Shown here: piece by piece, positions 4,122 through 20,781 of the stretch | Layout of the letters: each line of letters begins with the position of its first letter | Position numbering within the stretch: the first letter of the stretch is position 1 | Assembly: GCF_030973515.1 (NCBI RefSeq) | Contig: NZ_JARGZA010000005.1 | Coordinates: forward strand, 124,001-188,000 | Direction of reading: 5' to 3' | Length of the DNA stretch: 64,000 bases | From: Jannaschia maritima | Lineage (GTDB): Bacteria; Pseudomonadota; Alphaproteobacteria; Rhodobacterales; Rhodobacteraceae | Made by a program: the position numbers and the translations under genes | Notes under the pieces: model-generated | The model's database searches: none | What the model saw: the letters and a program-made list of their open reading frames with translations, nothing else | What the model was told of the DNA's origin: nothing

Positions 4122-4599
4122 ATGCCTAACTACCGCCGTCCCCACGTGCCGGGTTCATCGATCTTCTTCACCGTCGCATTGGCGGAGCGGGGGCGCGATA
4201 CGTTGGTACGGCATGTCGATGGATTGCGGGATGCAGTTCGCCAGACACGCGCGGAGCGGCCCTTCCGAATAGATGCGTGGGTCGTGTTGCCGGACCATCT
4301 GCACGCGGTGTGGACCCTGCCGGCGGGGGACGTGGACTATTCGGTACGGTGGGGCGCGATCAAGGCTCGGTTCTCGATGGCGATGCGTAGGGCGCAAGGG
4401 GGAGGTCGGATTGTGGCAGCCGCGGTTCTGGGAGCACCACATCCGGGACGAGGCCGACCTGCGCGCGCATGTCCGGTATTGCTGGATCAATCCGGTGAAG
4501 CACGGATTGTGCGATGTGCCGGAGGATCGGCCCCATTCGTCCGTGCATCGGGACATGACGGCCGGGCGGTACGTGCCGGGGATGGATTTGGGGTCGTAG
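4122..4599 (+). pseudogene. REP-associated tyrosine transposase (RAYT, Y1_Tnp/HUH), frameshifted
   Basis: Single-strand DNA transposase of the RAYT type, which acts on REP palindromes. It starts at ATG 4122 with GGGAGG just upstream. The first frame gives MPNYRRPHVPGSSIFFTVAL, then VVLPDHLHAVWTLPAGD, which holds the HUH pair (H-L-H), and KARFSMAMRRA. The rest of the family signature is in the +1 frame: GRKGEVGLWQPRFWEHHIRD, then HVRYCWINPVKHGL with the candidate catalytic Tyr, then CDVPEDRPHSSVHRDM. The switch is near 4390-4396 and looks like a small indel. The TAG stop is part of the next REP (GTAGGGCGGGG). The gene is probably dead unless the shift is recoded or a sequencing error. Confidence 0.85.
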
Positions 4600-4665
4600 G
4601 GCGGGGCTCACCCCGCCGCGTGGGTCGATGTGGACGGGGATGCGGCGGGGTGAACCCCGCCCTAC
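4596..4665. repeat. REP pair 2
   Basis: Arms 4596-4617 (GTAGGGCGGGGCTCACCCCGCC with the outer GTAG) and 4644-4665 form an inverted pair with one mismatch relative to pair 1. The second arm is identical to the second arm of pair 1. The left arm supplies the RAYT stop codon. Together with pair 1 it brackets the RAYT gene. Confidence 0.9.
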
Positions 4666-4682
4666 GGTCTTCGAAAACGTCC

Positions 4683-4747
4683 GGTGGGTGCGACCCACCA
4701 TGTCGGATCGTTCGCGATGTCGGGGGGTGGTGGGTGTCACCCACCCC
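4683..4747. repeat. REP-like pair 3 (GGTGGGT..ACCCACC variant)
   Basis: Two short palindromes, GGTGGGTGCGACCCACC at 4683-4699 and GGTGGGTGTCACCCACC at 4729-4745, are separated by about 29 bases. The spacer begins ATGTCGGATCGTTCG, close to the spacer of pair 4 (ATGTCGCGTCGTTCG). This is a second sequence class of REP in the same cluster. Confidence 0.75.
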
Positions 4748-4898
4748 AAGGTTCGCCGACCGTGCGAGGGGATCGGGCGGGTCGCGTCGGTGGCGGGCAA
4801 CGACCCCGGCCCGGGGCCGGGGTGCCGCGGGGCGACGTGCCGGTGGGTCGGGCATGCTCGGCGGTGCGGCGGAGCGGGCCGGAGGTGTCGGGGCTGCC

Positions 4899-4969
4899 GT
4901 AGGGTGGGTGCGGCCCACCATGTCGCGTCGTTCGATGCGTCCCGGAACGGTGGGTTCCACCCGCCCTAC
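4899..4969. repeat. REP pair 4
   Basis: Arms GTAGGGTGGGTGCGGCCCACC at 4899-4919 and GGTGGGTTCCACCCGCCCTAC at 4949-4969 form an imperfect inverted pair with GTAG/CTAC ends. The spacer resembles that of pair 3. It lies immediately before the decayed RAYT C-terminal fragment. Confidence 0.8.
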
Positions 4970-4974
4970 GGATC

Positions 4975-5047
4975 GCCGTGCGACGGGCCGGAGGATCGGC
5001 CGTATTCGTCGGTGCGCCGGGCGAAGCGGATGGGGATGTATCCGTAG
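4975..5047 (+). pseudogene. Remnant of a second RAYT C terminus
   Basis: Translation of this segment ends PCDGPEDRPYSSVRRAKRM-GMYP-stop. It aligns with the end of the upstream RAYT, LCDVPEDRPHSSVHRDM, and with the general RAYT C terminus (PEDWPWSSxHR). No N-terminal or catalytic part is present. Its TAG stop again falls in a REP arm (GTAGGGTGCGTGG at 5044). This is a fragment left from an older REP-RAYT unit or from a partial duplication. Confidence 0.6.
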
Positions 5048-5126
5048 GGTGCGTGGTCCCCACGCACCGATGCGGATGTCGGTGACGTATGGAACGGAGG
5101 CGGTGCATGACGAGCACACACCCTAC
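5044..5126. repeat. REP pair 5 (divergent)
   Basis: The left arm GTAGGGTGCGTGGTCCCCACGCACC (5044-5068) is a good palindrome. The right half is reduced to CACACACCCTAC, about 5115-5126. This is a degenerate member of the cluster. Confidence 0.6.
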
Positions 5127-5170
5127 GCGGTGCCATGTGCCGCCGACGACCCGCCCGCCGCGATGGGCCC

Positions 5171-6912: not shown

Positions 6913-7041
6913 TCACCCGTCCATCTTGAGCGCGGAAATAAACGCCGACTGCGGGATCTCCACCTTCCCGAACTGCCGCATCTTCTTCTTGCCGGCCTTC
7001 TGCTTCTCCAACAGCTTCTTCTTCCGCGTCATGTCCCCGCC
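6913..7041 (-). pseudogene. Duplicated 3' end of lepA (distal copy)
   Basis: This encodes [23 protein letters not shown] and continues to FISALKMDG-stop, the same as the last residues of intact LepA except for the final residue. A 68-base run (6956-7023) is identical to 7589-7656 in lepA. Outside it the copies differ mostly by base changes that keep the protein, so the copy came from a related but different lepA. Upstream, homology stops at about the GGD codons, immediately after the DUF2442 stop. The ATPase gene begins 1 base after the remnant's stop codon. It marks the old junction of an insertion behind lepA. Confidence 0.9.
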
Positions 7042-7063
7042 GTTCTCGGTCGCCCGACGGAAC

Positions 7064-7315
7064 CTACTCCGCCGCGACCTTCGTCGGCCTCGTGGCGTCC
7101 CCGCGACCCGCCAGCAGCCCCTCGACGGAGATATCCTCATCCAATTCCTCCCAGTGCAGGCCGAACGGGCCGATCTCAACGGCAAGCCGTTCCTCCGGCG
7201 TGGCGCCCAGGATGCGGGGGAACCAGACCAGCGGGACGCCGATGGTCCGCCCGTCCGACAGGGCCACCCACATGGCATCGTCGTCGAACGTCACGCGTTC
7301 AGCCGAAATGGTCAT
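7064..7315 (-). CDS. DUF2442 family protein
   Basis: An 83-residue protein with the DUF2442 pattern: [20 protein letters not shown], then [20 protein letters not shown], then [19 protein letters not shown]. The motif of a small beta sheet followed by W[13 protein letters not shown] is diagnostic of the family. It overlaps the end of the DUF4160 gene by 17 bases and is presumably co-translated with it. DUF4160/DUF2442 pairs are common as small accessory modules and are often suspected to be toxin-antitoxin-like, but their biochemical role is not established. The ATG at 7315 matches the family start; longer in-frame starts are not supported. Confidence 0.85.
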
Positions 7316-7541
7316 GCCATACCTCCGTGATCCGGTCCGCTTCATCTGACACCATCTCGGCCAGGCGTCGCAAGGTCCGGGCATCAAACCCGTCGGAGCG
7401 TGCATGTTCGACCGGCGGGCCGATCCAGAACTTCGCTTCTGCGGATCCACGCTTCACGTGGATATGAAGTGGCTCCCGCGGGTCGCCCTCGTTCGAGTAG
7501 AAGAAGAACCGAAACCCGTCCCGGCGGAGGACGGTCGGCAT
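7299..7541 (-). CDS. DUF4160 family protein
   Basis: An 80-residue protein with the DUF4160 signature: MPTVLRRDGFRFFFYSNEGD, then REPLHIHVKRGSAEAKFW, then ARTLRRLAEMVSDEADRITE and a terminal WHDHFG. The family has the invariant F-x-F/Y-S-N-E and E-P-x-H-I-H-V blocks, both present. Its ATG is 4 bases after the lepA stop (TGACGGTATG), so translation may be coupled to lepA. The next gene is its usual DUF2442 partner. It belongs to the cargo inserted between the intact lepA end and the duplicated lepA end. Confidence 0.85.
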   Translation of the reverse strand: MPTVLRRDGFRFFFYSNEGDPREPLHIHVKRGSAEAKFWIGPPVEHARSDGFDARTLRRLAEMVSDEADRITEVWHDHFG

Positions 7542-7545
7542 ACCG

Positions 7546-9345
7546 TCAGGAATCCATCTTCAACGCCGAGATGAACGCACTCTGCGGTATCTCCACCTTC
7601 CCGAACTGCCGCATCTTCTTCTTGCCGGCCTTCTGCTTCTCCAACAGCTTCTTCTTGCGGGTCATGTCGCCGCCATAGCACTTGGCCGTCACGTCCTTGC
7701 GCATGGCGGACAGGGTCTCACGCGCGACGACGCGGCCGCCGACGGCGGCCTGGATGGGGATCTTGAACATGTGGCGGGGGATCAGCTCCTTGAGCTTTTC
7801 CACCATGGCGCGGCCGCGGGCCTCCGCCCGGTCGCGGTGGACCATGACCGACAGGGCGTCGACGGGCTCCTCGTTGACGAGGATCTGCATCTTCTGAAGC
7901 GAATCCTCCCGGTACCCGGTCATCTGATAGTCGAAGGAGGCATAGCCCTTGGTCACGCTCTTGAGCCGGTCGTAGAAGTCGAACACCACCTCGTTCAACG
8001 GCAGGTCGTAGACGACCATCGCGCGGGGGCCGGCATAGGTCAGGTCCATCTGGATGCCGCGGCGGTCCTGGCACAGCTTCAAGACGTCGCCGAGATAGTC
8101 GTCGGGCACCAGGATCGTGGCCTTGATGCGCGGCTCCTCGATGTGGTCGACATGGGTCAGGTCGGGCATGTCGGCGGGGTTGTGCAGCTCGCGCACCTCG
8201 CCGTCGCGCATGTGGACGTGATAGACGACGCTGGGTGCCGTGGTGATCAGATCGATGTCGTATTCACGCTCGATCCTGTCCCGGATGACCTCCAGGTGCA
8301 GCAGACCCAGGAAGCCGCAGCGGAAGCCGAAGCCCAGGGCGGCGGACGATTCGACCTCGTGGCTGAAGCTGGCGTCGTTCAGGGCCAGCTTCTCGATCGC
8401 GTCGCGCAGATCCTCGAACTCGGCGGAATCGACGGGGAACAGGCCGCAGAACACGACCGGCTGGGACGGCTTGAAGCCCGGCAGGGGCTTGTCGGCGCCC
8501 CCCTTCTCGTGGGTGATGGTGTCGCCCACGCGGGTGTCGCGGACCTGCTTGATGCTGGCCGTCAGAAACCCGATCTCGCCCGGGCCCAGCTCCTCGGCCT
8601 GGGTCATGGCGGGGCGGAACACGCCGATGCGGTCGACGTGGTGCAGGCTGCCCGACTGCATCATGCGCACGCGGTCGCCCTTGCGCAGGACGCCGTCGAT
8701 GATGCGCACCAGGACGATCACGCCCAGATAGCTGTCGTACCAGCTGTCCACCAGCATGGCCTTCAGGGGCGCGTCGCGGTCGCCCTTGGGCGGGGGCAGG
8801 TGGTCGACGATGGCCTGCAGCGTTTCCTTGATGCCCTGGCCGGTCTTGGCGCTGACCAGGAGCGCGCCGGACGCGTCGAGGCCGATCACGTCCTCGATCT
8901 GCTCGGCCACGCGGTCGGGTTCGGAGGCCGGCAGGTCGATCTTGTTGAGGACGGGCACGATCTCGTGGTCCGCATCGATGGCCTGATAGACGTTGGCCAG
9001 GGTCTGCGCCTCGACCCCCTGGGTGCTGTCCACGACCAGGAGCGAGCCTTCGACGGCGCGCATGGAGCGCGACACCTCGTAGGCGAAGTCGACATGGCCC
9101 GGCGTGTCGATCAGGTTGAGGACATAGTCGTGACCGTCGGCCGCGGTCCAGTCGATGCGCACGGTGTTGGCCTTGATGGTGATCCCGCGCTCCCGCTCGA
9201 TGTCCATGGCGTCGAGCATCTGCTCCTTCATGTCCCGCGTGGCGACGGTGTTGGTTTCCTGGATCAACCGGTCGGCCAGCGTGGACTTGCCGTGGTCGAT
9301 ATGCGCCACGATCGAGAAGTTGCGGATGCGGGAGAGGTCGGTCAT
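7546..9345 (-). CDS. lepA: Elongation factor 4 (LepA), ribosome back-translocase
   Basis: A 599-residue translational GTPase that acts on the ribosome. G1 [15 protein letters not shown] is at about 13-27, the switch region [14 protein letters not shown] follows, G3 is [11 protein letters not shown], and G4 is NKIDLP. The EF-G-like domains and the LepA-specific C-terminal domain follow, ending in the basic [19 protein letters not shown] and [13 protein letters not shown]. Length is normal for the family. The ATG at 9345 gives [20 protein letters not shown]; a longer frame is rejected. The gene is complete, but its 3' end is the edge of an inserted DUF4160/DUF2442 pair, and a second lepA end lies 0.5 kb downstream. 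Confidence 0.97.
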
Positions 9346-19947: not shown

Positions 19948-20781
19948 CTAGTGGTGCGGATGCAGCGCATCCTTCAGGTACACGCAGGTCAGGATGGTGA
20001 AGACGTAGGCCTGGATCGCGGCGACCAGGACCTCGAGCCCGTAGATCGCGACCACGCCGATGATCGACAGGGGCGCGGCGATCGTCAGCGCGGCGAAGCC
20101 CGCGAACACCTTCAGCACCGCGTGGCCCGCCATGATGCTGCCCGCCAAACGGACGGAATGGCTGAGCGGGCGGACGAAGTAGCTGATGACCTCGATCACG
20201 GCTAGGACGGGGCGCAGCGCCAGCGGCGCGGACGACACCCAGAACAGGTCCAGGAACTTGGTGCCGTTCTTCACGAACCCCACGACGGTCACCGTGACGA
20301 AGACCGCCAGCGCCAGGACCGCCGTGACGGCGATGTGGCTGGTCGGGCTGAACGACATGGGGATCAGCGCCAGGAAGTTGGCGAACAGGATGAACAGGAA
20401 CAGCGTGAAGATGTACGGAAAGAACCGCAGCGCGTCCTTGCCGGCCACGTCCTCGACCATCTTGTGAATGAAGCCATAGGCCAGCTCGGCCACCGACTGC
20501 CCGCGGGATGGCACGATGTTGCGTCCGCGCGTCGCCAGCACCAGCAAGGCGAATACGCACAGGACGGCCAGCGCCATCCACAGTGTCGCGTTGGTGATCG
20601 TGTACCAATGGACCGGCGCGCCCGCGTCGCCGAACAGCGGCCTCACGATGAACTGGTCCAGCGGATGGAAGGACAGGCCGCCCCCGTGATCGGCCTCCGC
20701 CGTCACGCCGACCGCGTCCACGGCCGGGGCGTTGTCGGGCACGGGGCCCGCGGTGACGTCGTCGGTGGCGTCGTTTTCCAT
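19948..20781 (-). CDS. atpB: ATP synthase F0 subunit a (AtpB)
   Basis: A 277-residue membrane stator subunit with the proton half-channels. The N terminus is a 35-residue acidic extension. The key segment [20 protein letters not shown] carries the essential arginine, followed by [20 protein letters not shown], the conserved last helix. About six membrane helices. Sits between atpI and atpE. Confidence 0.96.

Follow-up and report, generated by a model that had tools for sequence, protein, structure and literature searches.

A second lepA 3' end behind a DUF4160/DUF2442 gene pair in Jannaschia maritima, and the lepA end as a candidate landing point for small cassettes in Rhodobacteraceae

Why should a genome carry the 3' end of lepA twice, with other genes packed between the whole gene and the spare end? 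The question is raised by a 64,000-nt stretch of DNA from Jannaschia maritima (RefSeq assembly GCF_030973515.1, contig NZ_JARGZA010000005.1, positions 124,001 to 188,000; hereafter the window), which lies on contig 41 of a 3.67-Mb genome that we label G000. In it, an intact lepA is followed by a DUF4160/DUF2442 gene pair of a toxin-antitoxin type and then by a displaced lepA 3' end. The answer we lean towards, on balance, is that the lepA 3' end is a recurrent landing point for small cassettes in Rhodobacteraceae, reached by RecA-type integration and most simply by a single crossover of a circularised fragment. The features on which the argument turns are the following.

9345-7546, minus strand: lepA (elongation factor 4), intact, 599 aa (TIGR01393, E 1e-286, and alignments)
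7541-7299, minus strand: DUF4160 gene, candidate DhiT-type toxin (PF13711, 6e-19)
7315-7064, minus strand: DUF2442 gene, candidate DhiA-type antitoxin (PF10387, 3e-23)
7041-6913, minus strand: second, displaced lepA 3' end, 41 codons plus a glycine codon and the stop (direct repeat, protein and nhmmer matches)

The DUF4160 gene starts at 7541, after a gap of 4 nt behind the lepA stop, and the displaced end, whose TGA occupies 6915-6913, is followed after 1 nt by the ATG of an ATPase gene (6911). The two lepA ends are 90% identical over a direct repeat of 122 nt (6920-7041 and 7553-7674). An alignment of the two, which the earlier note on this DNA had proposed, has now been run and fixes the start of homology at GGCGG(C/G)GACATGAC, 22 nt past the DUF2442 stop. 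All 41 residues of the second end equal the LepA end (protein search, E 7.7e-22); a profile built on the final 180 nt of lepA and searched with nhmmer against 850 kb of DNA behind 155 lepA genes finds it at E 7e-36, and the reversed flanks gave no profile match at E 0.1. On these values a chance resemblance is excluded.

Between the two ends 11 of the 42 sense codons differ, and ten of the 11 differences are silent. A drifting free copy would mostly change amino acids, so both ends must have evolved within working lepA genes. Across a 22-codon core the two are identical, whereas the ends of 20 other Jannaschia lepA genes differ from the intact one there at 3 to 8 codons (mean 5.35); outside the core the window's ends differ at 11 codons, which is divergence at the level of species (6 to 14 codons for the 20 other ends against the intact one). 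The core was picked after the fact, and the comparison with the 20 other species is the fairer test; the longest identical run between the intact end and any of them is 12 codons. An identical core between otherwise diverged ends is a recombination signal in lepA as a border gene, and together with the species-level divergence around it points to a recombination or conversion tract, i.e. to a mosaic. In-place tandem duplication of the lepA end, with the cargo splitting it later, would also account for two like-oriented copies of the gene end; we consider it ruled out by the nearly all-silent differences in the window, and with the divergence outside the core likewise speaking against it, it is hardly credible.

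The earlier note had described this gene order with its gaps of 4 bases and 1 base, the silent differences and the view that the second tail is no simple recent duplication, all of which hold. It had further assigned one tail to the lepA of another species. That the ends come from different lepA genes stands; for a foreign origin of the intact end the case is weak. Over the last 66 nt of that end, J. formosa ranks as the closest of 20 species (0.91; the second closest has 0.88). This species has the same gene pair directly behind lepA, and farther upstream it shows no special closeness to the window's lepA. This may be a weak hint that the intact end arrived with the cargo. The displaced end at 7041-6913 is best read as the older end, in which case the intact lepA would carry the newer one.

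Does the arrangement recur? With the 42-residue LepA end as query against 20 genomes of the genus, only the window's genome gave two significant matches (G015 has two weaker remnants). In a family sample of 394 genomes from 393 genera, the LepA end was matched in 361, ten of which have two matches. Besides G000, a second end on the same strand and about 99 to 606 nt behind lepA is found in seven of the 361, namely G302, G057, G364, G250, G120, G126 and G293; in G067 and G384 the second match lies elsewhere, not behind lepA. The one in G067 (contig 17, 22423-22521; L098) belongs to a partial second copy of lepA (match over residues 432-584) that is not on the contig of lepA itself; as far as the match goes, this is a longer piece of lepA lying apart from the gene. 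Displaced ends are rare, at about 2% of family genomes, and most sampled lepA genes have no second end. A class-wide sample (360 of 385 genomes matched) added second matches in G418, G581 and G732. That in G581 is on another contig with the same flanking sequence, and that in G732, a member of another family, lies 1.34 kb behind lepA, in the order lepA, AAA_16 ATPase gene, lepA end; the identity is 140 of 142 nt. The presence of the arrangement in other genomes indirectly excludes an assembly error in the window's genome.

The 15 matches of the profile search all lie on the lepA strand and come from 13 genomes or records; the 155 loci searched include some chosen for displaced ends (hereafter scars), some chosen for DUF4160, and one genome present twice (CCMM004 and G364). 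Three of the 15 are weak (E 0.025-0.075); of the 12 stronger ones, 11 end at position 178-179 of the 180 and one at 169. Their 5' edges vary from position 3 to 127, and the scar edges are at distances from the stop of about 68 nt up to 178 nt or more (-129, -97, -96 and -70 nt in four DUF4160/DUF2442 loci); decay blurs some edges and alignments overextend at 5' ends, and the edges were taken from the profile search and the comparison of DUF loci. What recurs is a partial direct repeat of the lepA end, of variable length, which runs past its stop into other downstream DNA, with the target lepA end regenerated and the old end displaced; we infer that the DNA behind the displaced ends is the original downstream DNA. 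Silent differences are 7 of 10 differing codons in CCMM004, 8 of 13 in G302, 5 of 8 in the metagenome-assembled genome (MAG) T3Sed10_182R1 and 5 of 9 in MAG ZH-Jul18-90 (L099 was left out of the tally for its frame slips).

The GyrB end served as a control in the same 394 genomes. It was matched in 378, four of which have a second match, and among the 378 none of the second matches was shown to be adjacent. Three of the four are a second gyrB-like gene or a weak paralogue. The fourth, in G311 (contig 43, 55647-55739; L347), is a lone end, a gyrB 3' end cut by the contig edge that could belong to a second gyrB or be a displaced end. With the window omitted, 7 of 360 for lepA against 0 of 378 for gyrB gives p 0.006 (Fisher). 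One repeat was found in a scan of 365 other gene ends in the fetched loci, a scan that includes loci picked for scars and whose lepA count is not a rate; the gene concerned reads like a transposase associated with repetitive extragenic palindromic (REP) sequences.

The cargo between the two ends is not the same from genome to genome. A DUF4160/DUF2442 pair occupies the place in the window, in G364 (Rhodobacteraceae bacterium CCMM004), in MAG ZH-Jul18-90 and in J. formosa, whose scar is decayed (40 of 51 nt, z 10.6). G293 has a ParE-like toxin gene with a small upstream gene, MAG T3Sed10_182R1 a DUF4258/DUF2283 pair and G250 a gene for a GIY-YIG protein; in G302, G057, G120 and G126 the ends are separated by 65 to about 280 nt with no recognised gene. 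With the AAA_16 gene of G732, these bear out what the earlier note had expected of related genomes, namely variable cargo at the lepA 3' end and extra lepA ends at cargo boundaries. In the window the DUF4160 gene precedes and overlaps the DUF2442 gene. In the available text of PMC8198452, dhiTA of Dickeya dadantii is a tested toxin-antitoxin system with the same domain pair, the toxin gene first and the two genes overlapping; the window's pair differs in standing behind lepA and in how its DUF4160 protein scores against the NCBIfam DhiT model (E 0.057, 14 bits against a cut-off of 100), and is a candidate by sequence alone. In J. seohaensis (G010, L082) the DUF4160 frame directly behind lepA has one internal stop codon and DUF2442 is kept; the toxin half of that pair seems to be inactivated.

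Could the pair simply have long belonged to the family, passed on by vertical descent and lost many times, and could the second end be an ancient duplication? DUF4160 was found (E up to 3.4e-14) in 18 of the 394 family genomes, and in 13 of those 18 no more than 1.5 kb separates it from the lepA end. G069, which is among the 13, is counted on the strength of a 16-residue lepA match at the edge of its locus, and its pair stands in opposite orientation, as does that of Wenxinia marina, which is identical. Among the best 80 DUF4160 loci of a wider collection lepA is nearby in 22 (23 by score, with one distant EF-type match dropped). In a tree of the pairs, those linked to lepA cluster (9 label changes against 25.5 in shuffles, with G069 scored as 'other' by the cut-off although it is near lepA), as vertical descent would have it. 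An old free scar, though, would not show almost only silent changes as the window's does, the same scar comes with different cargo types, and the pair is confined to few genera, with a clear match in only those 18 genomes; we therefore hold this explanation to be very improbable.

In the mechanism that we favor, the incoming DNA would consist of the last part of a foreign lepA and the genes behind it. Ordinary homologous recombination of the RecA type would join it to the end of the resident lepA, in the simplest form through one crossover after the fragment has closed into a circle. By adopting the incoming 3' end lepA would stay whole, and the cargo would come to lie in between; of the resident 3' end, the part running from some variable point to the stop codon would be left as a scar and would then decay. 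A gene transfer agent, transformation or conjugation might be the vehicle, and gene transfer agents are reported in Rhodobacteraceae (PMC8224337). The direction (the intact end as newcomer), the circular intermediate, RecA and the vehicle are all things that we infer. Homologous exchange is favored because the scar edges vary, because the junctions share no evident motif (seven were compared) and because the ends are mosaic.

A laboratory parallel is described in the available text of an E. coli study on the lacZ end (PMC3240628). There, DNA bearing a gene 3' end was linearised in the cell, recircularised and integrated by single crossover, which was recA-dependent in that system; most circles had lost part of the gene end, and 56 of 60 clones gave the PCR product of a partial duplication, 14 of them sequence-confirmed with duplicated ends of 109-950 bp and ascribed to a single crossover. 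Like the lepA loci, these clones hold cargo between a gene end and a partial duplicate of variable length, with no integrase. They differ in that they came from a laboratory plasmid in one species, whereas the lepA case is natural, recurs across genera and has a foreign end keeping the gene whole. The same study bears on an alternative in which linear DNA recombines homologously at the lepA end and is joined illegitimately into the resident tail at its other end, with no circle (either homology-facilitated illegitimate recombination or the mending of a broken tail). This route, too, would suit the varying scar edges and the absence of an evident junction motif. In E. coli, against the 56 clones with the partial gene-end duplication stood four illegitimate joins, with deletion, and we think the linear route unlikely.

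The second alternative is that a site-specific recombinase aims at the lepA 3' end, the cassettes being passengers or remnants that lack an integrase and the displaced end the far attachment site. Tyrosine integrases typically insert DNA at the 3' end of a gene and regenerate that gene, and integrase islands at gene ends leave the old end behind as a repeat. The crossover position in lepA is not constant, since the scar edges vary by more than 100 nt, and a search for tyrosine recombinases found none within the element or next to it. Two Phage_integrase genes are present in the genome of the window, and both read as Xer-like. In 10 related genomes no Phage_integrase gene was present on the lepA contig up to 50 kb from lepA, a span for which the contigs of G293 (29 kb) and G302 (94 kb) are too short. 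In the lepA flanks, no integrase was found by a profile seeded with two Xer proteins, a weak detector, serine recombinases and transposases not being surveyed; its four matches all fall in loci lacking a whole lepA (L159 twice, L165 and L103). With varying edges, no evident shared motif and no integrase found within 50 kb of lepA, a fixed-site enzyme is disfavored, and we rate it as quite improbable; an enzyme acting in trans is conceivable. Islands such as SGI1 at trmE, as far as the available descriptions go, resemble the lepA case in their insertion at a gene 3' end and differ in that at lepA no integrase was found nearby, the crossover is not constant and the cargo is one to three small genes. 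The earlier note had left the choice between homologous exchange and a site-specific enzyme; the first is now favored over the second, and its remark that no integrase is visible has stood up.

We also considered, and rejected, a phage or plasmid attachment site with a lone lepA tail. In viral contigs, scanned by exact short peptides only, the three confirmed loci all have a whole lepA and no lone tail. Of 11 phage records two are annotated, both as lepA, and of 41 plasmid records 20 are listed and eight annotated, all as lepA; there is no lone tail among the annotated phage records or among the annotated plasmid matches listed. These records stand against a site-specific enzyme as well.

Several observations weigh against RecA-type integration at lepA as we have set it out: (i) of 24 distinct DUF4160/DUF2442 loci at lepA 20 have no scar, and in G403 a ParE pair stands directly behind lepA without one, insertions that the linear route would explain if its second join falls behind lepA; (ii) in four loci the cargo stops 3-22 nt before the scar, which is tighter than random breakage of donor DNA suggests and which the linear route leaves unexplained too; (iii) other scars have a smaller silent share of differences than the window's, ranging between 7 of 10 (CCMM004) and 11 of 31 (G126), and non-silent changes number 5 of 9 in L101, 14 of 33 in L096, 12 of 21 in L094 and 20 of 31 in L100; (iv) 119 flanks fetched regardless of scars gave further ends only in G015, and these are weak; (v) with the G311 fragment counted (gyrB 1 of 378) the control is mildly significant, at p 0.034; (vi) the evidence for a foreign intact end consists of weak distances; and (vii) phages of Latilactobacillus curvatus integrate at lepA, according to the available text of PMC10688831, so that a lepA-specific integrase is conceivable.

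What lies beyond the displaced end belongs to the same variable locus, and its features are these.

6911-5709, minus strand: AAA ATPase (PF13175, 4e-22; PF13304, 2e-21; PADLOC AriA, 1e-25, and PDC-M29A, 5e-22)
5709-5290, minus strand: ATPase partner, candidate defence protein (PADLOC PDC-M29B, 2.4e-7)
3696-2962, minus strand: pyridoxamine-phosphate-oxidase-like gene, start codon uncertain (PF16242, 1.4e-25)

The first two had been read as an ATPase and a nuclease. The ATPase stands; for the second gene a nuclease role finds no support, its product having no Pfam match and matching only PDC-M29B. AriA outscores PDC-M29A for the ATPase, and we describe the two genes as a candidate defence pair resembling PDC-M29. 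The start of the ATPase 1 nt behind the displaced stop is the sole hint suggesting that the pair may be a separate unit that arrived earlier. The pyridoxamine-oxidase-like gene (tblastn match 3462-3157, 4,084 nt behind the lepA stop) is a conserved neighbour and the far border of the variable locus: of 20 other Jannaschia loci, 14 have it behind lepA at a distance of 219-4844 nt, and it was not found in the remaining six, one of which has just 793 nt of flank. Variable content between two conserved border genes, recombination in a border gene and a lepA neighbourhood in which no mobility genes were found are features shared with hotspots that are flanked by core genes and driven by homologous recombination. 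In the available account of that model the cargo is swapped by double recombination in the borders, and a displaced border-gene end is not described in it.

Some further observations were made around these loci. Palindromic repeats, some with GTAGGGTGGGTG-like arms, occupy 4509-5163 of the window, between the ATPase partner and the next gene, and read as REP-like; 11 of 120 loci, including that of the window, have such arms in the first 3 kb behind lepA. A tRNA or tmRNA was rejected as a target, the sole ARAGORN match in the window being 11 kb off and within a reading frame. That match, a tRNA-Cys with anticodon aca (20405-20500, minus strand, inside a 277-aa frame), is probably false. An open reading frame (ORF) family lies 0-1.8 kb behind lepA in 10 loci (L248, L276, L297, L088, L089, L090, L073, L131/L221 and L213, with L131 and L221 from one genome); L297, its sole scanned member, resembles IS200-like Y1 transposases (PF01797, E 0.006, below cut-off), and the family is probably REP-associated. 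Another ORF family, in Jannaschia L081 (G017), L088 (G018) and L084 (G003), has frames starting 0-129 nt past the lepA stop and relatives near other lepA cassettes. In Thetidibacter halocola (L050/L146) the last bases of lepA recur as an inverted copy directly past the stop (CTCTCAAAATGGA / TCCATTTTGAGAG), forming a hairpin across the stop codon. A last lepA codon TCC goes with directly abutting cargo in 5 of 9 loci, against 4 of 117 (Fisher 6e-5), a link counted by eye, chosen after the fact and a hint at most. Tallies by Pfam and PADLOC of the first ORFs behind lepA (91 of 96 listed ORFs from 120 loci, one start altered) give a hint of defence and toxin-antitoxin content; many of the ORFs are probably not genes.

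Among the open-access papers that our searches listed, we found no report of cassettes with duplicated lepA ends in these bacteria; one lead (PMC4494060) was dropped, lepA being merely a marker there. The available text of PMC5635113 notes many variable loci that have no recognisable integrases and whose mode of cargo exchange is not settled. As a tentative extension, which we think rather unlikely though not idle, lepA-armed cassettes might be integrase-free mobile units that loop out as a circle with one lepA end and re-enter the lepA of relatives by homologous recombination. If so, the host lepA would itself be the attachment site, the toxin-antitoxin cargo would pay for the ride, and diverse cargo would share one common vehicle, the lepA tail. 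Going by the gene families, the cargo, of toxin-antitoxin and defence-like types, is probably kept by addiction or for phage defence. Displaced lepA ends can be counted as scars of single insertions, which record the crossover position, the decay of the scar and the fact that a dedicated enzyme need not be there. If similar scars exist at other conserved genes, the integrase-free capture of genes would become measurable from sequence alone.

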